DNA from: Methyloprofundus sedimenti
GTDB lineage: Bacteria > Pseudomonadota > Gammaproteobacteria > Methylococcales > Methylomonadaceae
Assembly (NCBI RefSeq): GCF_002072955.1
Contig: NZ_LPUF01000002.1
Span: forward strand, 248,001 to 312,000
Direction of reading: 5' to 3'
Length of the DNA: 64,000 nucleotides
Shown: piece by piece, positions 15,594-34,620 of the stretch
How the letters are laid out: every line of letters begins with the position of its first letter
How positions within the stretch are numbered: position 1 is the first letter of the stretch
The notes under the pieces: model-generated
Seen by the model: the letters and a program-made list of their open reading frames with translations, nothing else
What the model was told of the DNA's origin: nothing
The model's database searches: none
Made by a program: the position numbers and the translations under genes

Positions 15594-15903
15594 TTATTGC
15601 ACGCCTAACGCTTTATACACAGCATCTACCGGATCAGAATAAAAACTAATCTGAAATCTCGAGAACAACTCGGCTGGCACGGTAGGTATATCTGAAGCAG
15701 AAGCCATCGGCAGCAATACTTTAGTGCCACCGCTATCCATTGCCATTTGTAAAGTACCTGCAAGATCTTCTACAGGATTCACTACGCCTCCTAAGGTCAT
15801 ATTGCCCAATACCACCATTTGCTCCTGTACCGGTTTTTTCATTAATACTGAACAGAAAGCAATAAATGCCGCAAGACTGGTTTGCGTGCTTGCACCTGAG
15901 TTA
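15594..15903 (-). pseudogene. brxL: brxL 3' part (Lon-like protease domain), severed by IS630
   Basis: These 310 bases encode the C-terminal end of BrxL, the Lon-like AAA+ protein of BREX type 1: NSGASTQTSLAAFIAFCSVL followed by VVLGNMTLGGVVNPVEDL and the ALGVQ terminus. The segment matches the Lon-type protease fold. It has been cut from its 5' part at 16949 by an insertion sequence. Joining 16949 to 15903 with one TA copy gives an uninterrupted frame across VEL-Y-NSG and a BrxL of about 690 aa. An internal ATG at 15842 gives an 82-aa frame, but a separate small protein is unlikely. It should be non-functional as it stands. Confidence 0.88.
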
Positions 15904-15981
15904 TATTACATTTCCCGTATTAATGAACTGAATTTTAATGTACTATAGCTTTCCCAGTTCTCCGTTATCAATCATATTTTT

Positions 15982-16353
15982 GTGCCAGCCCCTTACTCAG
16001 TCGATATTCGAAAAAAAGTGCTCAATGCTATTGAGATAGACAAACAAAGTAAACCTGATATAGCTAAACGTTTCGCTGTTTCTTATTCTTTTGTTTATAC
16101 CTTATGGCAACATTACCAGGAAACTGGCATGATTGCAGCCAAAAAAGTAGGCGGGCATGTTGCACCAAAAGTAGATGAAGCGGGTGCTCTTGAGATAAAA
16201 GAATGGCTAATAAAAAAGCCTGATTTGACACTAAATGATCTTTGTGACCGATATGCTGAACACTTTGGTATTAGCATGGGGAAAAGTTCAATGGATAGAG
16301 CTCTTAAGCGTATGAATATTCGATATAAAAAAAAGTCCGTACGATCCAGCTAA
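15982..16353 (+). CDS. IS630-family transposase, N-terminal part
   Basis: The 123-aa frame starts at a GTG (MPAPYSVDIRKKV) and encodes the paired helix-turn-helix DNA-binding part of an IS630 transposase (KPDIAKRFAVSYSFVYTLWQ; LTLNDLCDRYAEHFGISMG). It runs into a stretch of eight A at 16327-16334 and then leaves frame, ending ten codons later. The catalytic part continues in the +1 frame from about 16334. The A8 run could allow transcriptional slippage, or an extra A may have inactivated the gene. Confidence 0.88.
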   Translation: MPAPYSVDIRKKVLNAIEIDKQSKPDIAKRFAVSYSFVYTLWQHYQETGMIAAKKVGGHVAPKVDEAGALEIKEWLIKKPDLTLNDLCDRYAEHFGISMGKSSMDRALKRMNIRYKKKSVRSS

Positions 16354-16933
16354 ATATTGTGACCGAACTAAAAAGCTAAAAATAGACTATTGCACTGAAA
16401 TCGCCGATATATCGCTCGATAAGCTCATTTTTCTTGATGAAATGGGCGCAGGACTGAATCTCTCACCTCTTTATGGGCGAGCACCGTCAGATCAGCGTGT
16501 TTATGATGAAGCGCCGGTTGCTAAAGGGCAGCGTATAAGTATGGTCGGGGCAATGACATCAGCCGGTATGAAAACCGCCTTAAATTTTGAAGGAACCATG
16601 ACAGGACTTGTATTCCTCTACTTTTTGAAGCATTTTCTTTGCCCCTTACTCGCTGAAGGTGACTATGTTGTGATGGATAATGCCTCAGTTCATAAAGTAG
16701 ATGAGATTAAGGATCTTATTCAAAAGACAGGAGCAAAGCTTATTTATCTACCGCCTTACTCACCTGACCTTAACCCGATTGAATTAGCATGGAATAAAAT
16801 TAAACAGTACTTACGCAAACAAAGACCACGAACCGTTGAAGCGTTATATCAAGCTTATGCCGAAGGGTTGAAATGCATCAGTACAGATAATGCTCTAAGC
16901 TTTGTTAATCACTCAATGAAGTTCGCTATTTAA
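16337..16933 (+). CDS. IS630-family transposase, catalytic DDE part
   Basis: This frame is open from the A8 tract (SPYDPAKYCDRTKKLKIDY) and has a first ATG only at 16442. It carries the RNase-H-like DDE domain: FLDEMGAG (first Asp), YVVMDNASVHKVDEIK (second Asp) and PPYSPDLNPIELAWNKIK (Glu), ending near the right inverted repeat. It belongs in one product with the frame at 15982. A functional enzyme would need a +1 shift or RNA slippage at the A tract, otherwise the copy is dead. Confidence 0.87.
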   Translation, partial: PYDPAKYCDRTKKLKIDYCTEIADISLDKLIFLDEMGAGLNLSPLYGRAPSDQRVYDEAPVAKGQRISMVGAMTSAGMKTALNFEGTMTGLVFLYFLKHFLCPLLAEGDYVVMDNASVHKVDEIKDLIQKTGAKLIYLPPYSPDLNPIELAWNKIKQYLRKQRPRTVEALYQAYAEGLKCISTDNALSFVNHSMKFAI

Positions 16934-16948
16934 GTGGGATATGTAATA

Positions 16949-18709
16949 AAGCTCAACTATATGCAGATGGAACTCGTATTCAGAAAATTTTGCTATCTGG
17001 CTGATGCGGCTCAGGTTACCTTTGAAATAATCAAACCCGACTCTAATTGCTTCTTTAGCAGCCATATTAGAGCCTAATCCAGAAACCGTATGCCTGCCAT
17101 GCCCTGCCATCATTTGCGTTTCAAAGCGATATAATCCTAATTGTCCTGTTAAATCATTCTTGGTGACCAAATGCACCACGCCAGGGTGCGACATACCTTC
17201 AGGAATTAACTTGCTGCCGCCCTGCTCCGGTACATTAACGAAAAACTCTTCTAAAGATTCGTTATCCAAATAACTAAAATGCACATCAAAGAATTCCATC
17301 CCACCAAGTTTCTTAAGTTGCTCTTTAATGCGTCGGCGTACTTCCAAGGCATAAATCAAACAATAACGAACATCCTCTTTAGCAAATTGGTTGTTCGGGT
17401 GCAAGAGCTTAAGCAATCCTGATACAGTACACCGTACAGCAATCACATCGCGCTGGTTTAGGTTATTGCCTAACTTAAAATATTTATCAATTGCGTCGGC
17501 AAAATTACGCTTGCGCATTTCGCGCATATATTCGGCCATATAATCGGTAATCAAGCCAAAGTTATTGGTGAAGAACTCAGAGCGCATTTTCGGGATTTCC
17601 CAACCTGGAATATAAGCATGAAAACGATCAAAAAAAGCGGTATCAATCATCTGTTGTGGGAATGGCGCTAATAAATGACTGCTTTTCACTAAGGTTTCGA
17701 CGCTTTGATTGATATTACCGATAAAGACCATCGAGGCACTGGCTTCAATCGAATCACGCCCTCTGGAAAATGATCCAGATGCCATATAATCTTTCATGAT
17801 TTGAATGCCATCGTTATCATGAAAATTAATCCCCGCGACTTCATCAAACGCGACGACATCCCATAGCCCCACTAAACCCACTCTGCGACTGGCCATGTTA
17901 TAAAACAGGTTCGCCACCGTAGTTTGCCCACCAGAGACTAATAAGCTATTGGGTGAGCATTCTTTATAGACATGACTTTTACCGGTACCTCTCGGCCCTA
18001 ACTCACAGACATTATAATTATTCTCCACAAAGGGGATCATGCGCGCGAGCAAATGCAATTTAGCGCGGGTCTCTAAATTAACCGGTTCCATACCAATAGA
18101 ACGTAACAATACATCACCCCATTCAGTGGTCGTAAATTGGGCTCTCGCAGTAAATAACTCCTGCATATCCATATTGGGCATCTGAATGGGCTTCAGCGTC
18201 GCAATAGAAAACGGTGAGGCCTTCTGTCCTTCTTCAAAGAAATACTGCACAGTGATAATGCACCAGATTCCCCCCGTGAATAACTTCTCGTTTTCCTTAA
18301 CAATACCTACTGGAACAAAAGCATCCTTTAGCCCCAGGTTAGAAAGGTTCGCTTCATAAATATCCTTGTGTTGATTCAGCTTTACACTGACTTTATCGAT
18401 CACTTTATAGCTGCCGCGTTCGCGAATCAGTGATTTCACTTTTTCCGCTTCATCAGGGCGCACATAGTTTTCGGCTAATATCTTTTTAACATTTTCCAAG
18501 CCTTCATTCACTACTTCGGCATCATCAGAGGCACAGTACATCCCCAATAAATATTCCAACACATAAACAGGGACATTCGCCCCTTCTTTAAGCTGCTTGG
18601 TCAGATCCTTTCTGACCACACGCCCTTTAAAGTAGCGATTCAAAAGTGTATCCAAATCTTCGCGTGCCTTATCTTCTATATTGACACCGTCATTGATTAA
18701 ATCATTCAT
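16949..18709 (-). pseudogene. brxL: brxL 5' part (AAA+ domain), severed by IS630
   Basis: BrxL is the Lon-like AAA+ protein that closes BREX type 1 operons. The retained 587 codons include the N-terminal domain (KAREDLDTLLNRYFKGRVVR), Walker A GPRGTGKSHVYKE near 245 and Walker B VVAFDEVAGINFHD near 290, up to EYEFHLHIVEL. The reading frame then enters the insertion sequence and stops at 16913 after eleven foreign residues. The start overlaps the pglZ stop by one base (TAATG), so coupling is expected. A truncated ATPase without the protease domain could still be made. Confidence 0.92.
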
Positions 18710-21303
18710 TAGAAAAAGTCATCCGTAAAGGCTAAATCAATAGTGACGGCATACTGACTATAGCGGGTTTGTGTGATGGTATTTTCTAATACCAGTGTAT
18801 AGGCCGCATGACGATCAAATTGCGAACCAATCAGTTTTAAACGCGCATCTCGGGTACGCTCATTCATAGAAGTGCTTTGACTGTCAAAATTTAAGGTTTC
18901 ACGACTGGAAACTTCTTTACCGTCACTATCAATAATAAAAATATCCACTTGCCGCGCGATATGCTGCTCGTCAACCGCATCGGTCTGAATAAAACTGATT
19001 TTATCGATATTATTGGCCATTTTAATTGGCTGGCTTTTCACCACAATACCCACAGGCTGTTTCTCATTCTGCACCATCTTCTCACCGCGCAAGGCCGCAA
19101 TAGAAATCACCGGTACACAAATCTCTTGCAGCATAGCCCCGCCATGCACAAAACGAGAACCACCGATAAAATGAAAGCGTTGTGCGCCTTTAGGAATTAA
19201 AAATTCAGTGTCACCGCAGCCATTAGCGGTATCAGCAATCCGCCCTTTCCAGCAGGCTGAGTCAGCACGTAGATGATCGCCAATAATATAGCGTTTCCTG
19301 GCTTCTATGGTTCCGCCAGGCTTAAAGTCTAAAACCGTTTTATCGGCTTCAGATAAGGCTGTTTGCTGGAATAGAAATCCATGATCAGCGGTGACTAAAA
19401 CACGATTACCATTCAAGCGATTAATCACCCGCCCGACCAAGTCTTTTAATTCATTAATAGCATCACGACAGGCCTCAAAGGTTTTTTCTTCCGTCGGTAA
19501 CTTATCGCCGATGGCATCAATGGTATCGTGATAGATATACACCACTTCGGCATCACGAATCTTCTCACGGCCCTCTTCGTTACTCCAGGCGGACAAGACC
19601 TTTGCACTCACCGCCATGCCTTTTACTTTGGTTAAAATCGCATTGCGATTATCCAGACCTTGTGTTGATAAACCATCAGCAAAGACAACGGCACCCTGAT
19701 CTGTTGCATAAGATAATGTTTTATGCGGCAATAAGGCTGCCATGCCTAATTGCGTATAACTGGGTAATACACCAAACTGCGTGTTTAACTCAGCTTTAAA
19801 GCGTTTTTCACGATTAATACTAAAAACTAATTCATGGGCTACTTCATAACGCAAGGCATCCGAAATAATGACAAATACTCGCTTGAACTGCTTGCTTTTA
19901 AGATGAATCGCCACCTGACGATCATAAAACTGGTATTGCTGCGGGACACCGCCTATTTTCCACTCTTCTAAACAGTGTTCATTTTCCAGCAGCCTGTCCC
20001 ATGCCAGGCCTATTTCATATAAATACCAATGGGTATAAAGATTTTCTATTTCCTCATCGAGCTGGCGTAAAATATCCGCCCCTTTATTGAGTACCGACGC
20101 GACATTTTCATTAAATAGACGATACGCCTGATCAAATAAGTAAAGCTCACTCACATAAGCGCTATACATCGCCTTGGCGGAGTCATAATAAAAGCCATCA
20201 ACATATTGCTGACGTAAATATAATAAGCGCTCAGCCTGACGCAAGGCTTCATAAATCGCTGCGTACTCTTTTCGCGATAAACACCAGTGACTCACCAAAC
20301 GTCGCGATAAAATACGCTCAAATTGCACACGATCCAAACGCCGACTGACATCCAGTAAATCATTAACCAGACCGCGAATAATTGCCTGTTCAATCACTTC
20401 AAAGGTTTCACATTCGACTAACTGGTTGGGGTGGTAATCCCTGCAGCGTGATTGCACCTCTAATTGACCACTGATCTGCCTGGCAATCACATCATGTGCC
20501 TTTGCAAAGCTGCGACTATCGCGCCATCCGGTCATAAACGCTAATGCCGTTGCTTTACCTGCGCCCGTCTTTACGACATTATTCAGTAACCAATCCCGAT
20601 CCGTTGCTTCAATCTGACTCCATAACTCCGTACAGAATAATTTCAAGATGAAATCTGCTAAAGAAGGCTTGCTACTCGCATAACCAAATTGCGCCGCCAA
20701 TTCATTCCACAAGGACTCAGTTAATTCAAATTTATCTAGCTGATCCATTAAGCCGACAGCATCATTCCCTGAAGGTAAAGCCTCCGCATGATCCTTGACC
20801 AGTTGAAATAAAATATCCGTTAACGATGCTGATTCCGCTTTGCTTAACACCGCAATCATCTTACGGTCTAAAGAGGCTTCATCCTCGTTCTCGGTAACAA
20901 AACGCTTTAAGGCTGCCATACGCTGTTTATTAGCAAAAAACGACTGACGTTGACGTATATGGCCGCGCAACGCCATTTTAGGAATCCCTAGCTCATTCAA
21001 TAATATTGAACTCACATCGGCAAAGAATTGCTCACTGTATAAGCGTATATCTAACAGCCAATCCCGATCAGCTTCAGGTTCTGCATAAGGAAAATACAAT
21101 AAGAAAGGCGTTAGCGGCTCGTCTAATTCCAGACGCTTTTTAGTTTCAAATAAAGATTGCTCGGACATATCCAAAACAGTGACACCTTCAATTATTAGCA
21201 TCGAGACTGCCTCTTTAAAGCTTTCTTCAGGGTCGTACCAAAATACCAGGCGGCTTTGCTCAAATTTGGCGCGAATGCCTTGCTGTAGTTGTTCTATTTG
21301 CAT
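18709..21303 (-). CDS. pglZ: BREX type 1 protein PglZ
   Basis: PglZ is an alkaline-phosphatase-superfamily protein essential for BREX defence. The 864-aa protein starts MQIEQLQQGIRAKFEQSRLV and contains LVFWYDPEESF, typical for the family. The metal-binding phosphatase-fold motifs VFVIISDALRYEVAHEL (near 480) and RVLVTADHGFLFQ (near 640) are present, as is the GGSRFVHGGAMLQEICVP region. The frame is intact. It lies between the damaged pglX and brxL; the stop overlaps the brxL start. In a working system it acts with PglX and BrxC in phage restriction and site-specific host methylation. Confidence 0.95.
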   Translation of the reverse strand: MQIEQLQQGIRAKFEQSRLVFWYDPEESFKEAVSMLIIEGVTVLDMSEQSLFETKKRLELDEPLTPFLLYFPYAEPEADRDWLLDIRLYSEQFFADVSSILLNELGIPKMALRGHIRQRQSFFANKQRMAALKRFVTENEDEASLDRKMIAVLSKAESASLTDILFQLVKDHAEALPSGNDAVGLMDQLDKFELTESLWNELAAQFGYASSKPSLADFILKLFCTELWSQIEATDRDWLLNNVVKTGAGKATALAFMTGWRDSRSFAKAHDVIARQISGQLEVQSRCRDYHPNQLVECETFEVIEQAIIRGLVNDLLDVSRRLDRVQFERILSRRLVSHWCLSRKEYAAIYEALRQAERLLYLRQQYVDGFYYDSAKAMYSAYVSELYLFDQAYRLFNENVASVLNKGADILRQLDEEIENLYTHWYLYEIGLAWDRLLENEHCLEEWKIGGVPQQYQFYDRQVAIHLKSKQFKRVFVIISDALRYEVAHELVFSINREKRFKAELNTQFGVLPSYTQLGMAALLPHKTLSYATDQGAVVFADGLSTQGLDNRNAILTKVKGMAVSAKVLSAWSNEEGREKIRDAEVVYIYHDTIDAIGDKLPTEEKTFEACRDAINELKDLVGRVINRLNGNRVLVTADHGFLFQQTALSEADKTVLDFKPGGTIEARKRYIIGDHLRADSACWKGRIADTANGCGDTEFLIPKGAQRFHFIGGSRFVHGGAMLQEICVPVISIAALRGEKMVQNEKQPVGIVVKSQPIKMANNIDKISFIQTDAVDEQHIARQVDIFIIDSDGKEVSSRETLNFDSQSTSMNERTRDARLKLIGSQFDRHAAYTLVLENTITQTRYSQYAVTIDLAFTDDFF

Positions 21304-21323
21304 AACTGATACTTCATCCCTAT

Positions 21324-22015
21324 TTAAATAGTCTTGCCTAATTCGGTAGCTAAAGCAGTCAATCGATATTTTTGTAGCCGGCTACTTGGTTTATCCGGAA
21401 TTGTTCTTTCTATCAGACCTTTTTCAAGTAATTTTTTTATTTGCTTATTAAGCTCACCTGAGACTACTTTTTGATCCAGTTTCTGTGATAACTCTGATTT
21501 GCTAAGTTCATTATCAAGCAAAAATACGATAACTTTAGCGGCAAGATTTGACTCTAGCTGTGACTCTAGCTGTGACTCTAGCTGTGATGTTTTCTCAATA
21601 GTTTTCTTGTGCTCAAACTGCTGATGAATAGGCAAAGTCGTTAAAAAATAAACATTATGACTATCAGTTTCAAAAACAGGTTTAGGCGAACCATTATTTG
21701 CCATAAAACGCCTGATCTTAGGCAAACCAGTTCCTCTACCTTCTATAAGGTTTAATTCCTTCAAGAAATCACCTAAACGGCTATTGCGACAATCTCTGGC
21801 AATAATTTTTTTCCCTGTAGCATTTTTTGATCAACGGGCGGTAAAGGACCAGGGAAAGACAATATCTCAATACAGTTATGACGCACATTAATCTCAATAG
21901 GGTTTTCCTTATCATAACCTTTATGGAATACCGCATTCGCCACAGCTTCTTCCACCGCTTCAAAGGGAAAATTATAAAAACGTAACGCTATAGAGGTATT
22001 CTCTGCATGGCTCTC
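21324..22015 (-). pseudogene. AlbA_2/HATPase-type ATP-binding protein, truncated and frameshifted
   Basis: The 5' end is lost. From about 22015 the frame reads NTSIALRFYNFPFEAVEEAV then NAVFHKGYDKENPIEINV, the GHKL-ATPase-like half of the putative transcriptional regulators with an AlbA_2 domain. It breaks near 21800 and resumes in another frame as NSRLGDFLKELNLIEGRGTG with a winged-helix C-terminus (LSKSELSQKLDQKVVSGELN). The tail contains three tandem QLES units encoded by a 12-base repeat at about 21548-21586. The fragment lies between pglZ and the duplicated pglX end and is surely inactive. Such proteins are common in defence islands. Confidence 0.72.
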
Positions 22016-22188: not shown

Positions 22189-22250
22189 TTATTTCTCTGG
22201 AAACTTACCCGTCACCGCCTTAACATTCGCCAATAAATCGCCAAACTGTT
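22189..22250 (-). pseudogene. Second, diverged copy of the pglX 3' end
   Basis: The minus strand reads QFGDLLANVKAVTGKFPEK and a stop. The true pglX terminus 780 bases away reads KFGDLLAEVKAVTGGK and a stop. The two copies differ at several positions, so this is not a recent perfect duplication. It abuts the palindromic element at 22251. The arrangement suggests that the DUF4160/DUF2442 pair arrived with, or by recombination against, a different pglX allele. Confidence 0.7.
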
Positions 22251-22655: not shown

Positions 22656-22925
22656 TTATCGTAAAGGCTCAATACGTAATGGTTCTTCACCTGATATGGC
22701 TAACTTCCACTCGACCATCAAAGATTCTTGATGTAATTCAATCCATGCCTGAACTAATCGCGTTTGTTTTCGAGGTAAATTTCCAGCGATGATATCGCCT
22801 TCCATAATTGAAAACACAGCCTCATCATCCTGATATTCAGCATGGATAGGCGGCATATTATGTTTCCCCGTATCATAAAAATACATCATGATACGAATGC
22901 CATAAAAAATAGAAATAGTAGGCAT
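22656..22925 (-). CDS. DUF4160 protein
   Basis: The start at 22925 gives MPTISIFYGIRIMMYFYDTG, the standard DUF4160 beginning, and has AAAGGAG six bases upstream; an ATG eight codons earlier is less likely. The conserved HNMPPIHAEYQDDEAVF segment follows. The 89-aa protein is paired with the DUF2442 gene just downstream, as is usual for this cassette. The gene begins 42 bases after the pglX stop, so read-through from the BREX promoter is possible. Confidence 0.85.
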   Translation of the reverse strand: MPTISIFYGIRIMMYFYDTGKHNMPPIHAEYQDDEAVFSIMEGDIIAGNLPRKQTRLVQAWIELHQESLMVEWKLAISGEEPLRIEPLR

Positions 22926-22967
22926 CACTGACTCCTTTAGTATTAACAATTACCCTAAAATTATTCA

Positions 22968-23609
22968 TCACTTTCCCCCCGTCACCGCTTTAACCTCCGC
23001 CAGCAAATCACCAAATTTACCATAATTCACTTTAACGCCATCATCTAAATCCAAACTAATGTGCATATCAGCATAGTGCTTTAATTTATCGTCAAACTCG
23101 CTGAGTTCGGTTTGTTTTTTCTCTAAGGCGGTGAGGGATTTTTTAAAGCGATTGCTTTCAGCGGTGGTACTGGCATCTTGCATTTGTTTTTCTAATACCA
23201 TTGCAGAGGCCTCGTATTTACCTAACAACGGCGTGACGTATTCAGTACGCATTCGGGATAAGGTGCTTTCGTTGTAGCGGTGTAGATAAACCAAACATTC
23301 AAAGGCTTTTTGTTTCCCTGAACTAAATAACCAATAAATCGGGCGTTTTTTGTAGGTTTTTAGATGGTCTTTATAAAATTGGCTCGATAAATAACGGCGG
23401 ATAGTTTCTAGACTGGATTCACTGCTTTTGGCTTTAATGGCATACAGACATAAGCTTTCGGCTACAAAGTCTAGGTTTGTTTGTAGATTGTCTGCTCCCC
23501 AAACCACACGGACAAATTCACGGAAGCGGTGGGTGGCATCATCGGCAAACCATTCTTGATCGGTGAGCGGGAGAATGCCGTCGTTATCAGGTTTAAAAGT
23601 CTGTTTAAT
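22968..23609 (-). pseudogene. pglX: pglX 3' part, severed by IS3
   Basis: This is the C-terminal 213 residues of the BREX methyltransferase PglX: IKQTFKPDNDGILPLTDQEW, then RVVWGADNLQTNLDFVAESL, KKRPIYWLFSSGKQKAFECL and a coiled-coil helix ending GKFGDLLAEVKAVTGGK. Joining it to 24865 with one copy of the GTA duplication keeps the frame exactly (3162 + 642 nt = 1268 codons). An internal ATG at 23507 could start a 179-aa fragment. This part belongs to the target-recognition half of PglX, so the split should abolish methylation. Confidence 0.9.
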
Positions 23610-23683
23610 GTATGTAGTGGTCTAATAATCCTGTACTAAACGATAGGAGTTTATAATAACCCCTTAATCAAAGATGCAGACCA

Positions 23684-23986
23684 ATGAGTAAACGAAAAAG
23701 TTATACAACAGAATTTAAACATGAAGCGGCCAGTCTGGTATTAGATCAGGCATATTCCATAAATGATGCTTGCGAAGCTATGGGCGTTGGTACTACAGCA
23801 ATGCGCCGTTGGGTCACTCAATTAAAAGAAGAGCGTCATGGTGTTACGCCAAAAGGAAGCCGAGCGATTACTTCTGATCAGCAAAAGATTCAAGATTTGG
23901 AAAGTCAGATAAAGAAACTAAAGAGGGAGAAAGAGATTTTAAAAAAGGCTTCAGCTCTCTTAATATCGGACGTGTATCAATTTTAA
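23684..23986 (+). CDS. IS3-family transposase OrfA
   Basis: The 100-aa OrfA has the helix-turn-helix (YTTEFKHEAASLVLDQAYSI; ACEAMGVGTTAMRRWVTQLK) and a leucine-zipper-like coiled coil (IQDLESQIKKLKREKEILKK). Near the end the sequence A-AAA-AAG (23941-23947) lies in frame, the classical -1 programmed frameshift signal that joins OrfA to OrfB. It starts at ATG 23684 inside the element. Confidence 0.93.
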   Translation: MSKRKSYTTEFKHEAASLVLDQAYSINDACEAMGVGTTAMRRWVTQLKEERHGVTPKGSRAITSDQQKIQDLESQIKKLKREKEILKKASALLISDVYQF

Positions 23987-24825
23987 TGCTAATTGATGAG
24001 TTAAGAGAGCAATACAAACAATGCGAATTATTGCAAACATTTGAGATGAGTCGTAGTAGTTACAACTACCACCGTAAGCATGCAAACAAGGCAGATCCTG
24101 AGCGAGACAGGTTAAAATCCAAGGTTATTGCGTTACATGAAGCGAGCCGCAGTTCAGCGGGGAGTCGTACCCTTTCTGCTCAATTAAAACAGCAAGGTGA
24201 ATCTGTTGGACGCTTCAAAACACGGAGTTTAATGCAAGAAGCGGAGCTGACAAGTAAACAGCCAGGCGCACATCGTTACAAGGTGGCTGAAAAGCCATCA
24301 AACATAGCGGATAACCACTTAAACCGTGAATTTTCTACCGAACTGGCTAATCAAGTTTGGTGTGGTGATGTCACCTATATTTGGTCGGGTACAGGCTGGA
24401 TATATTTAGCATTGGTGATTGATTTAAATGCGCGCCGTATCGTGGGGTGGGCTTGCTCAACTAGTCCTGACTCAGTATTGACTACACGAGCGTTAAAATT
24501 AGCTTATGCGGCTAGAGGAGAGCCCAAGAACTTGATGTTTCATTCTGATCAGGGGTGCCATTACACCAGTAAGGTATTCCAGCAGCAATTGTCGGAATAT
24601 GAGATCAAGCAAAGCATGAGTCGGCGTGGTAACTGTTGGGATAATGCACCGATGGAGCGTTGTTTTAGAAGCTTTAAATCTGAATGGATGCCTAAGACTT
24701 TTTATTCATCTTATGAACAGGCAGAGAAAGATATTATGCAATACATCAAGTATTACAATAGTTTCCGTGTACATAGTTATAACAATTATTTAACCCCAAT
24801 CCAAGCGGAGAAAGAAGCCGCTTAA
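23986..24825 (+). CDS. IS3-family transposase OrfB (DDE integrase)
   Basis: The 279-aa OrfB has the HTH_21 region near the N-terminus and an rve integrase core. The DDE triad is visible as Asp in VWCGDVTYIW (near 125), Asp in MFHSDQGCHYTS (near 185) and Glu in NCWDNAPMERCFRSFK (near 220). It lies in the -1 frame relative to OrfA, which fits fusion at the A-AAA-AAG site. The frame is full length, so the element may be functional. Confidence 0.94.
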   Translation: MLIDELREQYKQCELLQTFEMSRSSYNYHRKHANKADPERDRLKSKVIALHEASRSSAGSRTLSAQLKQQGESVGRFKTRSLMQEAELTSKQPGAHRYKVAEKPSNIADNHLNREFSTELANQVWCGDVTYIWSGTGWIYLALVIDLNARRIVGWACSTSPDSVLTTRALKLAYAARGEPKNLMFHSDQGCHYTSKVFQQQLSEYEIKQSMSRRGNCWDNAPMERCFRSFKSEWMPKTFYSSYEQAEKDIMQYIKYYNSFRVHSYNNYLTPIQAEKEAA

Positions 24826-24884
24826 AAAACCGATCGTTATGTACGAATTTACTTGACCACTACAGTAGATATGTTTAATATACA

Positions 24885-25312: not shown

Positions 25313-25416
25313 ATCGTTCCCACGCTCTGGCGTGGGAACGCATTCGGCAACGCTCCTGCGTTGCGTGACGCTAGAGCGTCACTTACTGCATTCCCACGCT
25401 GGAGCGTGGGAACGAT
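25313..25416. repeat. Palindromic MITE-like element, copy 2, inside pglX frame
   Basis: The 104-bp element has the same ends as the copy at 22251 (ATCGTTCCCACGCT and its complement) but a different middle. It is translated without a stop within pglX, adding about 35 residues rich in Ala, Arg and Asn between the family segments near 850-890. A short ACTCACCACTCACT stretch abuts it. Confidence 0.8.
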
Positions 25417-27127
25417 AACAAACCACTCACCACTCACTAAAGGATTGCTTTGAAAGTCCCATGAGGTTTCGTAGTTATTCCAATCGTTTTGAGATAATTT
25501 TATAAGATCATTACATTCTACTTTAATAACTGAATTAAACGGTAACGCTCTAAAATTACCCACTTTAAAATGAAGGGTTGGGTTGATTATTGGTGTTATA
25601 AAATCAACAACGTTTGAATTTAAAAACGATAGTAATTGTGAAAAATCTCTACTCGATTTTAAAAAACCAGATGGACTTGCACTATCAAATAAATGGTTTT
25701 TTGGTTTTAATCGAGCTGAAAAACCACCTGATGTTATATCGGACCAAATAGCAGAGTTTTCAGAAAAAGTTGGTTCCCCTTGAATCCCAGAATTAGGCAT
25801 TGATTTAATTAACTCACCATTATTTTCCCAGTAAATTATAAATTCTTGGTTACCTGCCCATTTTCTATATTCACCACCTTTATGATGAAACACCCAACTA
25901 ACATCTAATTTATCTAGCATTCCTACTGTTGAGTAATCAACCTCATGCCAAAGTCTTAAAAACTTATCATTATTACCAGTTTTAATTCCTTCAGAAGAAA
26001 AAGACTCCGTACCTAGCGAATCAAATTTATCAAACACCGAAAACCAATTATCACTCACCCAATACGCGATCGGACTGCCTGGGATTTTTTTAAAGTCATC
26101 TTGCTGAGTTGTACTATAAGCTTGCTCTTTATTGAGTAAGGCTTGCTGTTTCTTTTCTTCATTCCCGTCAATCAAACGAAAAAAAGTCGGTTTATAATCT
26201 GCAATATGATTTTTTGCTAAAACAAAGGCGGTGGTCTGTACGACTTCACCCGATATTTGCCCAAATGCCCGCGCTCCTAAATGTGCCATCGTAATAAAGG
26301 TATGCTCATCTAAAAGCCATTCTCTGAACTTTTCATAACTGGATAAAAACATCCAGCTTTGCATCGTGACCATCGCCACATAAGTATTTTTCTCACCACT
26401 CGTCACTCCCCACTCATCCCTCAAAAACCGTTCCATAAACATCGCAAACAAATCCGATTTACTATCAGGAAACTGTTTTTTAGCAAAGGCTTTTAATTCT
26501 GCATTCATGCCTTTACCGCCCATATACGGTGGATTCGCGACCACGACATCATAGGATTGCGCCAAGATTAAGGCTTGTTGCACCAAAGGCATTAAGCATT
26601 GATAGCTTTGCTGGGCTAAAAAATCCTGGATATTATCCGCAAGTTTTTCTAAGGCGCGCTCTAAGGTGGGTAGGTATGCGCTTAATGAATCAGGAATTTG
26701 AATTAACGAACCTAAACAGTCTGCTTGTGCAAAGGTGTCAATTAATTCCCGGATGATACTGCCTAAACTCTGAATTTCTTCTTGATTATAATGCGCTTGC
26801 CAGAGCTGTTGCGCATTGAGCACTAAGGCTTCTGCTTCTAATCCCTTTGAACTTTGCAAGGCCATGATATTTAACTGCACCTCACGGGTAAATATACGCC
26901 GATCATCCGCCCGCGCTTTCATCATCAAAGCAAAACCCGATAATTGCGCCGCGCGGTCGTCTATATCCAAACCGTAGAGATTTTTTTCTAAAATCAGCTT
27001 GGGAATATCACGCAACCGGTAACCGCGCTCTGCATAGATGGCTTTGAGTAAATCGTAGGCTTCGACCAATATATGCCCTGAACCGCAAGCAGGATCTATT
27101 AATGTTAAATCCTCTGGATTTAAAGCA

Positions 27128-27197
27128 GTGATGAGTGATGAGTGATGAGTGGTGAGTTGACTCTCCTGACTCGCCACTAATCCCTCGTCACTCGCCC
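27128..27197. repeat. ACTCATC-type minisatellite inside pglX
   Basis: GTGATGAGTGATGAGTGATG and a diverged mirror continuation (CGCCACTAATCCCTCGTCACTC) form a low-complexity insert translated as roughly ASQESQLTTHHSSLITA, 15 residues before the SAM-binding motif. Similar ACTC-rich bits occur at 25420-25440 and 26388-26418 in the same gene. Likely slippage-grown or inserted linker DNA. Confidence 0.6.
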
Positions 27198-28022
27198 CTT
27201 GAATATAGTAGTCCATGTCATTTTTCAGCTGTGACTCAGGGTAATGCATTAACCAGTGTCGTCCTAATGAATTTTGCACCAGATATTTAACGATCCAATT
27301 CGGCGTAAATAACTGCGTGGCGGCGGGTATATCTTCCGATTTAACCACCTTACCAATCACTTGATCTTTCTTTTCTGAAATATAGAATTGATATAACCAG
27401 CCAATCACTTCCACCTGCTCCCAATCTTCCACAGGTATCTCATTCACCAGTCCACGCAAAATAGAATCGGTACGGGTTAGGTTATCAGGTAATAAGAGTT
27501 CAGTTTCATCATCAATCGCTTCAAACAGAAACGGCATGGCTTGATGCAAGGCATGGCATTGTCCTAATAATAAAGTCCGATACAAAAGCTCGTCCTGATT
27601 ACCTGCCAGTTTGAGTTCAATAATCTGATCACGGTTTAAACTTAAATCCTCAGCCACATCTTGAGCATGTTCCAGTATTTCAAAACCGCTATTATTTTCA
27701 GGGTGGGATAAAACGCGTAACCCATGATCTAAATAACCATGTAACTCCATGTAACGAATCGCACAAAGACGGTTAAACCATGTATAGGCAACGAGTTCCA
27801 TTAAGGCTGTAAAACCAGTATTTTCAACCTGTGCAATTAATTTATTACGTGCACCTTTGAGCTTTAAATCAACACTACGTCCCTCAACAGTCAGCACCTG
27901 CCCTTCTTCTTTTGCTTCTGCAATATGGCTGGCGAAAATACCAAGTTCATTTGCGCGTTTGCTAACGGCGGTGATAAAAGCGTTCCTGGCCAGGGGGGCG
28001 TATTTCTTGATGTGAGTGGTAT

Positions 28023-28472
28023 TCATGAGGCGCTTATCCAGTCCGATAAAAGCATGACATTAAGATTGGATAATGATTTAAATCCCACATCATTGGTTAA
28101 TAAACAGGTACAAGAATGTATTAAAGCAGTGCTTGCATGAATAGCATCAGGTAGCTTTATACCTGTTTCTGCACGTAGTTTTGCCGCTGCGATAAGAATA
28201 TCTTCATCTATTGGCATAATGTTCAAGTAATCACCAGGCGTTAGTGCTTCGCGGTAAACAGCAACTAATTCAGGGTGCTGTTTAAAAGGGAAAACCAAAC
28301 ATTCTGCTAAGGTTAATTGACTGGTTATTGCTTTGCATTCACCTTGCACTAGCCCTGTGAATACCTCTGATAATAGACTTGCCCAAGGCTCTGCTCCTTC
28401 TAGAGCATAAATAAAAATATTCGTGTCCAGGTAAATATATTGTTGGGCAAGTATTGTTCTCAATCGTCCCAT
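28023..28472 (-). CDS. PIN-domain toxin (VapC-like)
   Basis: PIN toxins are RNases. The 149-aa protein has the first acidic motif YLDTNIFIYALEG (near 13-25), the TLAECLVFP motif near 80 and a last acidic group KLPDAIHASTAL near 122, LLTNDVGF near 135. It overlaps the antitoxin gene by 13 bases upstream, and its stop overlaps the pglX start (ATGA). It thus sits within the BREX operon between brxC and pglX, possibly sharing transcription and coupling to pglX translation. Confidence 0.9.
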   Translation of the reverse strand: MGRLRTILAQQYIYLDTNIFIYALEGAEPWASLLSEVFTGLVQGECKAITSQLTLAECLVFPFKQHPELVAVYREALTPGDYLNIMPIDEDILIAAAKLRAETGIKLPDAIHASTALIHSCTCLLTNDVGFKSLSNLNVMLLSDWISAS

Positions 28473-28690: not shown

Positions 28691-28879
28691 GTCTGTATGT
28701 AGGTTGTCTTCATTAAAAACAAATATTGGGTAAGTGTATCAATTCTTGACCTAATACGAGGTAAAATTTCTAGCCTTATTATCGTTCCCTCGATCCTGCG
28801 TAAGAACTCATAGTCTTTATTTTTTCAAATCAATAACAGTATCTTTAAGCAGGGAATATATCAAACGCTGGTTTGCCTT

Positions 28880-29377
28880 TTATTGGCCTAAACTGCGACG
28901 TACATCCATTAGCGTCATAAATAACTTATTCGGTTCATCTAAAAATGAGCTAAAGCCCATTTTTTCATAGAATTTCGCCACACCTTGTTTGGCATCAACC
29001 ATAATTAAGGGAAAAGCCACTGTATCACTAGCAGCAAGCAGTTTATGCAAGGCATCAATTAATAACCATTCACCATAACCCTGTTGCGCATAGCGTTTAT
29101 CAATTGCAAGTCGTGCAATGAGTGCAGTGGCTTGGGCATTCTGGTGTTTCTTTTGTAACTTCTGAGGTAAGGCGCTTAGATTCAATGTAGTCATCGTTAG
29201 CGTGTAGTAACCTATGATAAATGTCGTTTGTTGCTGATCTTCCAGGACAAAGGTGCGAGTATTGTCTTTGCTTGATTGCTGCTGTGCCATTAGCCTCAAA
29301 TAATTATTTAACGGTTCAACTCCACAGTCAAAACGTTTACGGTCATGTTTATTTTTATCCAGAGGGACGGTAATCAC
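28880..29377 (-). CDS. GNAT acetyltransferase toxin (TacT-like)
   Basis: TacT-type toxins acetylate the amino group of charged tRNA. The 165-aa GNAT protein has the usual features: N-terminal FDCGVEPLNNYLRLMAQQQ, central YYTLTMTTLNLSALP, and acetyl-CoA motif LAIDKRYAQQGYGEWLLIDA (near 93-112), followed by KFYEKMGFSSF. It overlaps the DUF1778 antitoxin gene by four bases (ATGA). It lies inside the BREX operon between brxC and the PIN pair. Confidence 0.9.
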   Translation of the reverse strand: MITVPLDKNKHDRKRFDCGVEPLNNYLRLMAQQQSSKDNTRTFVLEDQQQTTFIIGYYTLTMTTLNLSALPQKLQKKHQNAQATALIARLAIDKRYAQQGYGEWLLIDALHKLLAASDTVAFPLIMVDAKQGVAKFYEKMGFSSFLDEPNKLFMTLMDVRRSLGQ

Positions 29378-29649
29378 GCTTGCGATTTACTCGTATAACG
29401 CTCTGCCGCTTGCTGTAAGCGTTGATGTACTTGTGCCGGTGCATCCAAGGCTTTGGCTAATAAAGCGGCATCACGCTGGCTCAGTTTTATGCTTTGTTCG
29501 CGCTCGATAATGTCTTGGGCTTTTTCTATCGCCGCACTGAGTACAAATGAGTTAATGCTGGACATACCCGCTAATAAAGCGGCTTTTGAAAGTAAGTTTT
29601 GAGTGTCTGCATCAACACGGGCGGTAATGCGGGGTGAAGTTGATGTCAT
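29374..29649 (-). CDS. DUF1778 antitoxin (TacA-like)
   Basis: The 91-aa protein starts with a ribbon-helix-helix (SPRITARVDADTQNLLSKAA; GMSSINSFVLSAAIEKAQDI) and ends with the C-terminal toxin-neutralising tail containing SQRDAALLAKALDAP. This is the standard DUF1778 antitoxin that neutralises and auto-represses with the GNAT toxin downstream. The 112 bases between brxC's end and this gene are AT-rich and may hold its own promoter. Confidence 0.9.
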   Translation of the reverse strand: MTSTSPRITARVDADTQNLLSKAALLAGMSSINSFVLSAAIEKAQDIIEREQSIKLSQRDAALLAKALDAPAQVHQRLQQAAERYTSKSQA

Positions 29650-29761: not shown

Positions 29762-32700
29762 CTATTTTAATCTAACTTTATCACCTGCATTCACCGCCTT
29801 AATAAGCTGTTCTCGCAATTTAGCCAGGTATTGTTCCACTTGTTCTTCACTTTCAAGAAATACATGTCCTGCCCCCATCATATTCATAATCGCTGCTGGA
29901 TTGATCGTTACTGTTCGTTTTGCTTGCGGTGCTGTTATTTTGGCTTTAGCAACCGAGCCGCCTGCTGGAATTTCTGGCTTAACCATGTTGGCTTTGCGCC
30001 GCTCCGATTCAATAAATTCATTAATCAATTCAATCGCTGCATCTTCATGCGCCCCGGCTTCCATCTGATCACTAATAATTTGAGCAATAGAGTGGGTTTT
30101 ATCGATATGCTTTTTACAGTCCTGCAAGGGCAATAAGGCTTTATTTTTTAGCGTATCAGGCGCATTCGCTTCAAGTAATGAGGTCGTGATGCTGTTAATT
30201 CGGCTCTCAATACGCGCATATGCATGCGCACGTTTTTCAGCGACTAATTGATCATTAATTTTTTGCACGCTTTCAATTAGTGGCTTGATATGGCGTAATT
30301 GTCCATAGGGCTCTGCCATCTCATAAATACGGTCCAGTTCCTTTAATGCCTTTAAAGCTTCTCCCTGTTTTTCGAGTGCTGGACGATTAGCCTGGTGATT
30401 ATTAAGTGCTTCTGCTAAGGACTGCCATGTGTGGAATTGGCTGTTATAGAACTCGTCCAGATCTTCAAAATCTTCTGCGAATTCCTCCAGGGCATCAGCA
30501 TCTGCTATCAGGCGTTGAATGAGTTCAAAGCTGTTTCTTTGCTCTAATATTCCCGCCAATAAAACTAAGCCCGATTCTATTTTTTCTTTACCTGGGAAAT
30601 GCCCAGTTTGAGATTTAATGGCAAAGGATTTAAGTTCCTCTTGCCATTTTTTTAATTCTTGTTGAATCAGTTCTGTCAGTTCTTTTTCGCCTGAGCCTGT
30701 AAAGGTTTTTGCGAATAGCGTTTTAACTAACCCAACTGCTTTTTTGAGCTGCCTTTCATCATGTAGTCTTATTTTTTGTATGCGTATTTCGCCGCGTTTA
30801 CGACTGTTGGTAAACGGTTCATATGCTTTGTTTAAAGCTAACGGCAAGCTTTGCAAGGTAAAACTGATTTTTCCTGCTAACCCTAGTCGGGCGGCTATTA
30901 ATAATAATTCATCATCTAGCCAGCCATAAGGGCGACGCGTAAAATGACTGACTAAATCGCGTAAATAAAGGGCTTCGTTACGATCCACTTTAAGTGATAT
31001 GTATTGCTCCACTTCTTTCATCGCTTGTGGATTACATTCCTCTGCGGCAAAGTCCATATTGGTTTGGGCAATATCATCTGCCATTAATACCGCCTGGATT
31101 TCTTTTTCTATACTCCCCGTGGTGGGACGTAACAAATTCAGTTTTGCAAAGGTGTTTTCGATCACATAGGTGTAAGCCGCTTCCAAAATAGCTGAGGGTG
31201 TTGCTGCTTTTTTGGGTAATTTTGTACCGATGGCAAATAGGTCTGCTTCAATAAATAAACTTTCAAAATCATGTCTTAAGCGTTTTTCTCTTTCCATGTT
31301 TTCCATCTGTTTATCGCGCAACAGATGTTCTTGTTCTGGACGTTGACCTGAATTTTGTTTTAAAAAACGGTCTGTCTGAATAAAGGTTGTTAGTTCATCC
31401 CATAGGCGTTTGTGTTCGCCTAATTTAATTAAGATGCAACCATCACCGTCTAAGGTATGGTTAATGCAGTGTTGATCATGCGCATAATTTTCATAATGGG
31501 CATCGAGTGGGGAGATTAGCTTTAATACCAGATCTTCTAATTTTGATCCGTCTCTTGGATGTCCGTTACAAAAACGACTGACTTTAAAATCCTGTTTATT
31601 TACGGGATAACGGAACTGATTTTGACGACGTAAAATATCATCAAAAATGATAGTAGCCAGTTTATTAGAAACTTCTGAAGGCTCTATATCGGTATGCCGT
31701 ATCTCATTTTCTATTTCTTTTTCTTCATTGGTAAGAAAGACGAACTCATCACCGTTGCGGGCGATTAATAACTGTCGTTCCAGGCGATTTAAACTGTCAT
31801 CAATTTGTTTTCTTAAATTTATTTTGTCTGCATCTATGCAATCAATAGAAAGCGTGACCAGGTTATCCAGAGTACTTTTGACCGTATCAACATAACGAAT
31901 CAGAAATAGAGTTTTAAGTATATTGCCGTCAAACTCTGTGAGTGAGTCCAGGTCACAAGCCTGATCTATCGTTCGTTTTACGGCTGGTTCTAAAAAGCTT
32001 TCTATAGGACTGTAAAAATTATGGAAAGGGATTAATACGTCTAAAGGACAGTCTTTAACCTGTTTAGCAGCGGATTGGAAAGCATCCAGTAAAGAGCGTT
32101 CCCCCATCGCTAAATGTTTGCCTGTTGCGCCTTTGGTTCTTATCGATTCAAATACTTTTTGTACTAATGCGTAATGAAACGGAATGAAGGGGTAGTTATC
32201 AATAAAGGAGGGTGCATCAGAAAAGGGTTTTAATTCTGCTGTGGTGGTTTTATCAAAAGATAACTGATTTCTTAAAATATCGCCTTTATCTGCATAGATT
32301 TCACCTAGTTCTTTACTTGCTTGTTCCGTTTTGGCCAGTAAACGTTTTTGAATAACTTCTGATGTATTGGAGCTGGAGAGTGAGGGTTTTGTAGCAAAAC
32401 GGCCTTGAATCTTTGAAAAATCATCGCCGTCACGCTTTTCCATATTGCCAATAGCGGCATCTAAATCAGCTTGTGAGGTAACTACTACCCAAGCCCTTCC
32501 ACCACAAGTTGTGCCCAGGTCTTCAACTATTGTTTGAAGCTTGAGCATCATTTGGGTATTTTTGCCGATGAACTGACCTACTTCATCAACTAAAAATAAA
32601 ACATGCCGGCCATTTTTGCTTTCGATATATTCGTTGACCCATTTGCAGAAGTTTTTCACATCGAGTGGAAAATTATTCCCCAGCTCTTCTATTACTTGAC

Positions 32701-33382
32701 GAGCTGATTCTGGGCTTTGTTTGCTGGCTTCTGCAAAAGCTTCTGTGAGTTCATCACGATAAAAATCATAGGCATCTCGGTTGTTTTCCCACGTATCGCC
32801 AGTGAGTTCAGCAAATTTATCTTTGAATGCCTGGTATTGTCCTCGCTTATCTAGTTCTCGCTCTAAATGCGCTATATGAGGGAAGTCAGCGCAATAACCG
32901 ACTCGCTCATTAAATACTTTAAGAAAAACTTTTAAGATGGCATTTTCTGCTTCATCGGTATTAGCCCGTGAATCAATATTAAACAGGATAACATCTGCTT
33001 CTTTATTAATCGCACTATGTATATCGCTGATAAGCATTGCATCGGTAATTTTTTCTTTGAAAAACTCGAAGGCTTTACGTGTCTCTCCGTCTTTTTCTAC
33101 TTCTCTATTTTCAATGAGGTAAGACAGGATTTTTAGGAAATGCGATTTACCCGAACCAAAAAAGCCCTTAATCCATACACCCATTTTAGTGTTAGGATTG
33201 AATTTATCATTACATGAAGGCAGATAAGCTTCAAAAAATTCCCTGAAATGTCGGTCTAATTCTTGAGTGACTACATATTCATCCAGTTCAACATAAACAC
33301 TGTCATTATCCATTTGCTCGGCTTTGACAACACCATTAATATTACGGGTCAGTTGCTTGGTAAAGATTTCTTCGACTATCAT
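29762..33382 (-). CDS. brxC: BREX ATPase BrxC
   Basis: BrxC is the large P-loop ATPase of BREX type 1. The intact 1206-aa protein has Walker A GFFGSGKSHFLKIL at 73-86, Walker B-like HVLFLVDEVGQFIGKN near 265 and the typical start MIVEEIFTKQLTRNINGVVK. The DUF6079-like rest includes a helical C-terminal half. It lies 18 bases after brxB, in normal order. Both neighbours in the upstream part of the operon are intact, while pglX and brxL downstream are broken. Confidence 0.95.
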   Translation of the reverse strand: MIVEEIFTKQLTRNINGVVKAEQMDNDSVYVELDEYVVTQELDRHFREFFEAYLPSCNDKFNPNTKMGVWIKGFFGSGKSHFLKILSYLIENREVEKDGETRKAFEFFKEKITDAMLISDIHSAINKEADVILFNIDSRANTDEAENAILKVFLKVFNERVGYCADFPHIAHLERELDKRGQYQAFKDKFAELTGDTWENNRDAYDFYRDELTEAFAEASKQSPESARQVIEELGNNFPLDVKNFCKWVNEYIESKNGRHVLFLVDEVGQFIGKNTQMMLKLQTIVEDLGTTCGGRAWVVVTSQADLDAAIGNMEKRDGDDFSKIQGRFATKPSLSSSNTSEVIQKRLLAKTEQASKELGEIYADKGDILRNQLSFDKTTTAELKPFSDAPSFIDNYPFIPFHYALVQKVFESIRTKGATGKHLAMGERSLLDAFQSAAKQVKDCPLDVLIPFHNFYSPIESFLEPAVKRTIDQACDLDSLTEFDGNILKTLFLIRYVDTVKSTLDNLVTLSIDCIDADKINLRKQIDDSLNRLERQLLIARNGDEFVFLTNEEKEIENEIRHTDIEPSEVSNKLATIIFDDILRRQNQFRYPVNKQDFKVSRFCNGHPRDGSKLEDLVLKLISPLDAHYENYAHDQHCINHTLDGDGCILIKLGEHKRLWDELTTFIQTDRFLKQNSGQRPEQEHLLRDKQMENMEREKRLRHDFESLFIEADLFAIGTKLPKKAATPSAILEAAYTYVIENTFAKLNLLRPTTGSIEKEIQAVLMADDIAQTNMDFAAEECNPQAMKEVEQYISLKVDRNEALYLRDLVSHFTRRPYGWLDDELLLIAARLGLAGKISFTLQSLPLALNKAYEPFTNSRKRGEIRIQKIRLHDERQLKKAVGLVKTLFAKTFTGSGEKELTELIQQELKKWQEELKSFAIKSQTGHFPGKEKIESGLVLLAGILEQRNSFELIQRLIADADALEEFAEDFEDLDEFYNSQFHTWQSLAEALNNHQANRPALEKQGEALKALKELDRIYEMAEPYGQLRHIKPLIESVQKINDQLVAEKRAHAYARIESRINSITTSLLEANAPDTLKNKALLPLQDCKKHIDKTHSIAQIISDQMEAGAHEDAAIELINEFIESERRKANMVKPEIPAGGSVAKAKITAPQAKRTVTINPAAIMNMMGAGHVFLESEEQVEQYLAKLREQLIKAVNAGDKVRLK

Positions 33383-33400
33383 AAGGAATAGGATTAGGCG

Positions 33401-34033
33401 TTATTTAAGGAGCGAGGATTTGCCGTCTTCGGGAACAAGTTTAAAGGCACGATAATAATTACGCGATTCAATCATGCCGAAAGGGTGTAAATCCCGACCA
33501 CTGTATGAGCCAGGGTAAAACAGAATAAACGGGGTATTGCCCATAACATCTTGCAAGGCACTGAGTAATTCATGTCCGCGCACTAACGGCCAGGCATTAC
33601 CTAAACCAGATAATAAAAGAAAATCCAGGTTTGATTGATCATTGGCTTTAAAGGCTTGCTCGGCAATAAACTTGGCGACTTTATCCTGGCTTAATGGACC
33701 CGCTAAAGTTTTGCGTAAAGCATCGGCACCCACTTGTTTTTCACGCGCAAAAGTGCGCTCTAATAAGCCGCGCGCATTGAGCATATCGGTTAGCGCTTGA
33801 AAGATATTGATATGCGCAAAATGATGATTATGTTTACTAAGCTTTTCAGTGAGATGATTAAGATAGTCTCTGACAATTAACTCTGATTTAGGCGGGTAAT
33901 CAAAAATCCAGAAGCCAACCTCATTACCTAAACCATCGTTTTTAAGAAATTTAGGACATTCGATCCGCTCAAGCACTAAATCCAATCGAGCTTGCAGGGC
34001 TTTATCTGTGCGCTGATTCATTATTGGGTACAC
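33401..34033 (-). CDS. brxB: BREX protein BrxB (DUF1788)
   Basis: The 210-aa protein is the DUF1788 family member found second in BREX type 1 operons, with GFWIFDYPPKSELIVRDYLN near 45 and the family end GSYSGRDLHPFGMIESRNYY then RAFKLVP. It overlaps brxA by 13 bases. The biochemical role is not settled; it is needed for defence in model systems. Intact. Confidence 0.93.
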   Translation of the reverse strand: MYPIMNQRTDKALQARLDLVLERIECPKFLKNDGLGNEVGFWIFDYPPKSELIVRDYLNHLTEKLSKHNHHFAHINIFQALTDMLNARGLLERTFAREKQVGADALRKTLAGPLSQDKVAKFIAEQAFKANDQSNLDFLLLSGLGNAWPLVRGHELLSALQDVMGNTPFILFYPGSYSGRDLHPFGMIESRNYYRAFKLVPEDGKSSLLK

Positions 34034-34620
34034 TCCATGACCGCGATAAGTTCTTGTTTGTTAATTTGACGCAAGGTTGCTATTACTTCAGGCAATAAGT
34101 AAACGACCTGTAGTTGCCGTTGACGTGACGAATTAAGATAACCCGCATCGACTAATGCCTTAATGACATTACTACCCATTTTCTTTTGCGTAGCTTCAGA
34201 ATAATCCGCCAATACAGGAAACACCCGACTGCGATCCTGGATAAAATCACCCCACGCATGCGCTGATATAGCAGGTTTATAGGTACGTTTCGCTTCAGCA
34301 AGCCATTCTCGCATAAAATCAGCAATGATGGGGGACTGTACGATAAATCCAGCGAGTAATAATTGCACATAGGCACGATCTGATACATCAAGTAAGGCCT
34401 GAGTATAGATATCTCCCATTGCTTTTAAACGCTTACGAATCACGTTAGCAAAGCGTAATGAGGTTTGCGCGGATTTCTTTTGCAGAATATTATCTTTAAC
34501 AATACGTTGCTTCCATTGCTCTTCAGACAGCTTTTCTAATTGAACAGATGCGATGATGCGAGTCTCGGCGATTAACAGACTGCCGCCGTTTAGGTCGCCT
34601 ACGTAGTTTTTTAGCTTCAC
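34021..34620 (-). CDS. brxA: BREX protein BrxA (DUF1819)
   Basis: BrxA is the small DNA-binding, DUF1819 protein that opens BREX type 1 operons. The 199 aa include LLIAETRIIASVQLEKLSEE, QKKSAQTSLRFANVIRKRLK and a C-terminal winged-helix-like region ending in the LQVVYLLPEV segment. It begins the operon; the promoter must lie within 34621-34667 or beyond the IS30-type relic just upstream. Intact. Confidence 0.92.
   Translation of the reverse strand: MKLKNYVGDLNGGSLLIAETRIIASVQLEKLSEEQWKQRIVKDNILQKKSAQTSLRFANVIRKRLKAMGDIYTQALLDVSDRAYVQLLLAGFIVQSPIIADFMREWLAEAKRTYKPAISAHAWGDFIQDRSRVFPVLADYSEATQKKMGSNVIKALVDAGYLNSSRQRQLQVVYLLPEVIATLRQINKQELIAVMECTQ

Follow-up and report, generated by a model that had tools for sequence, protein, structure and literature searches.

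We analyzed a 64,000-nucleotide stretch of the Methyloprofundus sedimenti genome (contig NZ_LPUF01000002.1, positions 248,001 to 312,000; hereafter the window), in which an operon of the bacteriophage exclusion (BREX) type occupies positions 15,594 to 34,620. This operon is very likely an ordinary type 1 BREX system that has recently lost its function through two multicopy insertion sequences (IS), one in the methyltransferase gene pglX and the other in brxL. Such a loss is ordinary; the more interesting lead is a group of S23/IVP genes with 7-nt repeat arms, to which a hairpin read in frame inside pglX may be related. An earlier interpretation of this DNA, made from the letters alone and called below the sequence-only reading, had described the insertions as clean and reversible. 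Coordinates are those of the window unless stated otherwise, and G and L numbers are our handles for genomes and loci.

Two insertion sequences interrupt pglX and brxL

The six core genes lie on the minus strand in the order brxA-brxB-brxC-pglX-pglZ-brxL, which is the gene set and order of type 1 BREX, and each has a strong family match, as the sequence-only reading had stated. The genes for the PglX methyltransferase and BrxL are not intact, each being cut by an IS. The locus is a type 1 BREX by descent, and its working as such is only putative.

15594..15905, minus strand: brxL after IS630, end of the Lon-like domain (PADLOC BrxL 599-679/680, Lon_C)
15906..16946, plus strand: IS630-family element (HTH_Tnp_IS630, DDE_3)
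16947..18709, minus strand: brxL before IS630 (PF13337, PF20442)
18709..21303, minus strand: pglZ (PADLOC PglZ 1-855/855; PF08665)
22968..23612, minus strand: pglX after IS3 (PADLOC PglX C-terminal match)
23613..24864, plus strand: IS3-family element (OrfA 23684-23986, OrfB 23986-24825; rve domain)
24865..28026, minus strand: pglX before IS3 (PADLOC PglX/type IIG, residues 1-1016; BrxX/PglX structures 9ewz, 8c45)
29762..33382, minus strand: brxC (PADLOC BrxC, profile 1-1190/1190; BrxC domains)
33401..34033, minus strand: brxB (PADLOC BrxB, 4.5e-64)
34021..34620, minus strand: brxA (PADLOC BrxA, 5.3e-75; Pfam PF08849)

The coordinates and target duplications given for both elements in the sequence-only reading withstood re-examination, and a doubt about the coordinates was rejected. 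The element in pglX has the marks of the IS3 family: OrfA and OrfB, the rve domain, inverted repeats at its termini and a target duplication (3 bp here, 3-4 bp in the family), with copies of GTA at both of its ends. There are 10 full copies, 98-100% identical, in the 4.29-Mb genome; because 7 of them show a 3-bp duplication, the GTA is a genuine target duplication. The element in brxL combines an IS630-type HTH and a DDE_3 transposase with insertion at a duplicated TA, as expected of the IS630 family, and TA is present at both ends. The nine full copies of this element in the genome are 99-100% identical and all nine have TA on both sides; in the copy within brxL, the transposase is spread over two frames.

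Removal of each element with one target copy yields a pglX of 1268 codons and a brxL of 691 codons, counting the stop (1267 and 690 amino acids), in agreement with the earlier count, and a search of the joined genes for further frameshifts or stops found none. The family residues had been taken as continuous across both junctions. This holds for BrxL, in which VELYNSGAST matches the intact relative G005, and fails for PglX, where only the frame is continuous because the junction falls in a non-conserved, repeat-derived linker not common to the aligned relatives. Four core genes (brxA, brxB, brxC and pglZ) are intact, as claimed, and no core gene has further stops or frameshifts.

Probable consequences for function, and age of the proposed loss

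The insertions remove ~213 residues from the C-terminus of PglX and ~103 from that of BrxL, the latter comprising the end of the Lon-like domain. With the C-terminal parts of both proteins gone, the disruption of BREX that had been proposed is upheld as regards restriction, which the assembled genotype very probably lacks. The truncation takes away most of the C-terminal region of PglX, so that methylation has probably ceased as well. Here we are less sure, since variants of the PglX C-terminus are able to uncouple restriction from modification (PMC12707154). In Acinetobacter, deletion of brxL leaves methylation in place, and brxA, brxB, brxC, pglZ and pglX are required for it (PMC9122589); in Salmonella, several charged residues of the C-terminal region of PglX were mutated for tests of DNA and Ocr binding (PMC11341690). 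Restriction would have been lost recently, during an expansion of the IS. We read the data as loss and not as switching, because BREX could recover only if both insertions were lost precisely or if the locus recombined with an intact copy. For surveys of genomes this is a caution, as broken defence operons can be counted as present.

To assess the state of the genes, we used the ratio of nonsynonymous to synonymous substitution rates (dN/dS). Compared with G005, the ratio is 0.036 for brxL before IS630 and 0.008 beyond it (with dS of 1.58 there, near saturation), 0.068 for pglZ and 0.10 for the end of pglX, for which the comparison with G011 gives 0.08. The brxL and pglZ genes and the end of pglX are under purifying selection, and in the core genes tested (brxL, pglZ and pglX) nothing suggests a long decay.

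Several points weigh against a recent and complete loss. Low dN/dS values cannot date the insertions closely, because they mostly reflect the time before the insertions; dS in the comparison with G005 is 0.8-1.6, and brxL and pglZ have no usable dS against G011. The part of pglX before IS3, in which the recognition domain lies, has a dN/dS of 0.26 against G011. Some activity might persist in a PglX that is split or truncated, and the population may be mixed, with empty sites. Finally, a 21-bp end of an IS110-family element in pglX is read in frame as 7 codons; this suggests the loss of most of an element that once stood beside the palindrome REP2 (below), and is some evidence that loss of an element can leave pglX readable.

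Other copies of the insertion sequences and chance expectation

A further IS630 copy of the same genome (L064, C3:579418-580458) cuts hsdR of a type I restriction system, the sides of which match profile positions 18-301 and 302-800 of 807. Other IS copies lie in or beside genes for a TrkH-type transporter, a peroxidase, a transport permease, a cytochrome c, a helicase-associated-domain protein and an IS66-type protein; these neighbors of copies other than the one in hsdR were named from flanking frames, with the flanks on either side unjoined. For the 38 flanks of the 19 full copies, the longest frames touching the IS were listed, with coordinates for 12; of 10 frames compared with Pfam, 8 had a family and 2 had none, and 4 frames were scanned against PADLOC. 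The chance expectation of a 19,027-bp stretch with both IS is 0.38 per genome when full copies are counted, and 0.56 when partial copies are counted too. The double hit is therefore no strong sign of selection, and the idea that two IS in one operon prove it was rejected.

Repeats read in frame inside pglX

The sequence-only reading had no mention of the in-frame repeats of pglX, the IS110 end, or the pglX 3' stub and broken accessory gene described below. The repeats are as follows.

24867..24887, minus strand: end of an IS110-family element, 21 bp, between REP2 and IS3, with identical ends elsewhere in the genome
24888..24965, minus strand: REP2 palindrome, site B, in frame in pglX, preceding IS3 (hairpin z -7.4)
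25313..25416, minus strand: REP1 palindrome, site A, in frame in pglX (hairpin z -11.9)
25423..25440, minus strand: one-sided 7-nt-type arm, site A, common to the relative G011 (by eye)
26392..26421, minus strand: degenerate one-sided arm, site D, in frame in pglX (87% complementary to the site C arm)
27122..27198, minus strand: 7-nt-repeat hairpin, site C, in frame in pglX (RNA hairpin -31.4 kcal/mol, z -4.24)

REP1 accounts for PglX residues ~868-905 and has 63 matches in the genome, itself and both strands counted; REP1-like peptides are found in several family members. According to the published domain limits of Salmonella PglX (PMC11341690), its site is between the target recognition domain (TRD) and the spacer helices. 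The solved E. coli BrxX has ~4 residues there, between those aligned to 871 and 876. The other genome matches of REP2 fall in two regions, C2:96960 and C1:225602-226316. The 21-bp IS110 end recurs exactly at 7 other places in the genome, 5 of which are beside palindromes (by eye); an IS110 transposase was seen in three inspected copies, and named by Pfam in one.

The core array of site C (27127-27151, near PglX residue 290) consists of 3.6 copies of AGTGATG on the plus strand. The one-sided arm of site A (residues ~863-868) scores 13/21 at lag 7, and that of site D (residues ~536-545) scores 10/21 at both lag 7 and lag 12, in a tested segment that clipped its first bases. We considered the 7-nt array as a genome-wide repeat of this strain and rejected it, the array having matches, with up to 2 mismatches, in pglX only. 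As read from the sequence, then, the inter-domain linkers of pglX tolerate REP palindromes, a 7-nt hairpin and an IS110 remnant in frame. IS3 landed in one of these repeat-bearing linkers.

For comparison we aligned 61 PglX proteins, namely 59 from 80 named loci (where the frame reached 1100 aa and contained the motif by which it was picked), the joined protein of the window and that of G011. Repeat-like linker inserts of at least 12 residues, labelled by eye, are present in 11 of the 61. In relatives, in-frame repeat-like inserts occur at the same linkers as here but are of other kinds (by eye). The joint between TRD and spacer holds repeats of different types in several methanotroph relatives and none in others (L075 and G022). 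Dispersal of the repeats was tested for the strain's own genome, and in the relatives the REP1 peptide was matched. At L071 (G013), a small inserted gene (1234-1957) splits pglX at the linker occupied by the hairpin in the window. Among the 80 named loci, 74 have pglX open over 1100 aa or more; in four of the remaining six the frame stops at or near a contig end, and in L078 and L126 one in-frame stop codon splits it. Breakage of pglX is probably underestimated by these numbers, because the 80 loci were chosen for good matches; frequent pglX disruptions have been described (Goldfarb 2015, as cited in PMC9122589). The nearest PglX matches include Methylobacter and Methylococcaceae, and L089 and G031 are apparently one genome. 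Residues 661-866 have 29-50% identity to the 16 proteins with data, compared with at least 70% to the nearest relatives in other parts. Ordinary diversification of the recognition domain would account for this pattern, and we do not claim a repeat-mediated origin for it.

S23/IVP genes with 7-nt periodic arms

The array CTCATCACTCATCACTCA was found in 2 of 37 genomes and in 2 of 201 family genomes, in pglX only (the window and G011). The control, in which the array was reversed, was found in 0/37 and 3/201 genomes; because of the latter, 7-nt arrays are not confined to pglX. The arrays of the window and G011 are at different pglX linkers. In G011, the array borders a pglX insert that holds an S23/IVP gene in another frame (PF05635, with one internal stop). 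The fetched flanks of two of the 80 named PglX loci (L098 and L107) contain an S23/IVP gene, as do G011 and G022; L098 and L107 are BREX loci in which this gene has 7-nt arms, and in L107 it stands between pglZ and brxL. With regard to an enrichment of such genes in BREX loci, these are raw counts.

The search for S23/IVP genes covered 299 genomes of the phylum (51 with a match, 30 loci listed), the strain's own genome and 36 relatives. Five duplicates were removed and the weak locus L205 was missed by a profile built from 5 of the genes found in relatives, giving 38 S23/IVP genes: 30 from phylum loci, 6 from relatives and 2 from BREX loci. The best tandem lag is 7 in 34/38 left and 35/38 right flanks, compared with 8/70 controls taken ~700 bp away. 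A strong 7-nt signal (at least 15/21) on at least one side accompanies 32 of the 38 genes (23 left, 29 right), compared with 2 of 70 single control flanks. Complementarity of the arms is 9-58, versus 7-17 in 35 controls, and exceeds every control in 26 of the 38 genes and not in the other 12. The 38 genes are not all independent, because several lie between the same neighbor genes in related genomes (by eye). Among the loci L200, L202, L203 and L206-L235, several stand between adjacent genes of apparent operons.

The hairpin of the window likewise has complementary arms of 7-nt periodicity (20/21 at lag 7 at site C, mainly in the right arm), and it looks like a gene-less derivative of an S23/IVP element with such arms, for which it is a candidate. 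We do not file it as an S23/IVP element, because only the arms are present and the search of the strain's own genome for the S23/IVP gene (PF05635) gave 0 matches. More broadly, we propose, tentatively and with a little less than even confidence, that S23/IVP genes with 7-nt periodic complementary arms form a widespread mobile family that settles in operon junctions and, in gene-less form, in protein genes, where it is read in frame. Such a family would account for many bacterial heptamer arrays that lack an explanation; its non-autonomous derivatives would include the pglX hairpins of the window and G011, inserted repeatedly into linkers of the BREX methyltransferase. If this is one element family, the origin of abundant bacterial heptamer repeats becomes directly testable, and so does the effect on translation of the genes entered. 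The wider point is twofold: pglX linkers take up foreign repeats without loss of frame, and S23/IVP genes outside 23S rRNA carry 7-nt arms.

Accessory genes and gene relics

Between brxC and pglX (28023-29649) there are a TacA-like antitoxin gene with a GNAT gene and a PIN-domain gene; a further accessory gene and two relics lie between pglX and pglZ.

28023..28472, minus strand: accessory PIN-domain gene, overlapping the pglX start (PF01850, 5.6e-18)
28880..29377, minus strand: accessory GNAT acetyltransferase gene, adjoining the TacA-like gene (PF13508 and relatives)
29374..29649, minus strand: accessory TacA-like antitoxin gene (PF08681, 1.5e-21)
22656..22949, minus strand: accessory DUF4160 gene (PF13711, 2e-23)
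22190..22249, minus strand: stub like a second pglX 3' end (outer limits by eye)
21324..21990, minus strand: accessory-gene relic, 511 aa and open in G005 (Fic-like_C)

In the relic, residues 294-511 of the G005 protein are present in two frames, and residues 1-293 were not found. The core of the stub (22208-22245, 38 nt) is 84% identical to the live pglX 3' end, and the stub is a possible scar of pglX replacement. A REP palindrome (~22250-22370) adjoins it.

Alternative explanations

The description of the insertions as clean and reversible implied on/off switching of BREX by insertion and precise excision. Both frames do rejoin with one target copy, and at the pglX linker cut by IS3 the mostly lost IS110 element apparently left an in-frame remnant of 21 bp. 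However, a continuous, rejoinable frame follows from any simple IS insertion, which leaves both the reversibility and the switching unsupported, and switching needs two independent precise losses. IS3 elements generally transpose by copying themselves out, and excision of IS630-type elements usually leaves footprints. We regard this scheme as extremely improbable. The other suggestion of the sequence-only reading, that a costly or self-damaging BREX was selected against and the insertions were favored, agrees with hits in two core genes and with IS630 in a third restriction gene, hsdR, of the same genome. It is possible but unneeded: both IS are multicopy, further copies lie in or beside metabolic genes, about 0.4-0.6 such double-IS stretches are expected by chance, and neutral loss explains the same data. 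Selection of this kind is thus rather unlikely.

It is also conceivable that the operon was decaying before the IS arrived, since the region between pglX and pglZ contains the broken accessory gene as well as the pglX 3' stub. The six core genes, however, have no other stops or frameshifts, and among the core genes compared, purifying selection acts on brxL, pglZ and the end of pglX, so that we find prior decay very unlikely. In another scenario, the IS are incidental and pglX expression varies through slippage at the 7-nt array of this gene. The unit length cannot be divided by three, no other tract with units of 2 or 4-11 nt passes the thresholds used here anywhere in the window, and the exact array is specific to pglX in two of the 201 family genomes; phase variation of pglX has been described as common or frequent (PMC11341690, PMC9122589). 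On the other hand, there are only 3.6 copies, the position at different linkers in the two genomes is element-like and unlike a conserved tract, similar arrays flank S23/IVP genes, and the reversed-array control in 3/201 genomes indicates that 7-nt arrays as a class are not rare in the family. Slippage as the main explanation is unlikely; if pglX switches at all, the array would be a further candidate. We therefore retain recent loss of an ordinary type 1 BREX through two multicopy IS.

Comparison with known systems

The type 1 BREX of E. coli HS, Salmonella and Acinetobacter has the same six core genes in the canonical order; unlike in those systems, pglX and brxL are IS-cut here. Residues 1-865 and 905-1016 of the PglX in the window align with the solved BrxX, and for BrxL the match is 8emc. 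The joint between TRD and spacer helices is ~39 residues long, compared with ~4 in BrxX. Phase variation of pglX in the Streptomyces Pgl system affects the same gene; here, in contrast, IS and dispersed elements are responsible, and reversibility is only putative.

The combination of S23 with 7-nt repeats is already known within 23S rRNA, as both 7-nt repeats and inverted repeats at the termini are reported for the intervening sequence (IVS) of Coxiella (PMC4990558). The S23/IVP gene, the terminal inverted repeats and a short 7-nt tandem array are thus shared with that IVS. Unlike it, the loci studied here are intergenic or within a protein gene, mostly with 7-nt periodic arms on both sides, and the hairpin of the window is without an S23 gene. 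Outside 23S rRNA, no report linking S23/IVP genes to heptamers was found among the literature matches listed, which left subscription journals mostly uncovered. The TAACTGA heptanucleotide repeats of Beggiatoaceae (PMC4679880) are likewise 7-nt arrays next to or inside genes, for which a mobile carrier was considered; in contrast to the loci here, the text of that paper makes no mention of S23, four helix or intervening sequence.

The in-frame repeats of pglX also have a counterpart of a different kind. In Rickettsia, palindromic elements occur within coding genes and are likewise palindromes read in frame in proteins. The elements and hosts are other ones, and here several kinds of elements share the linkers of one defence gene.

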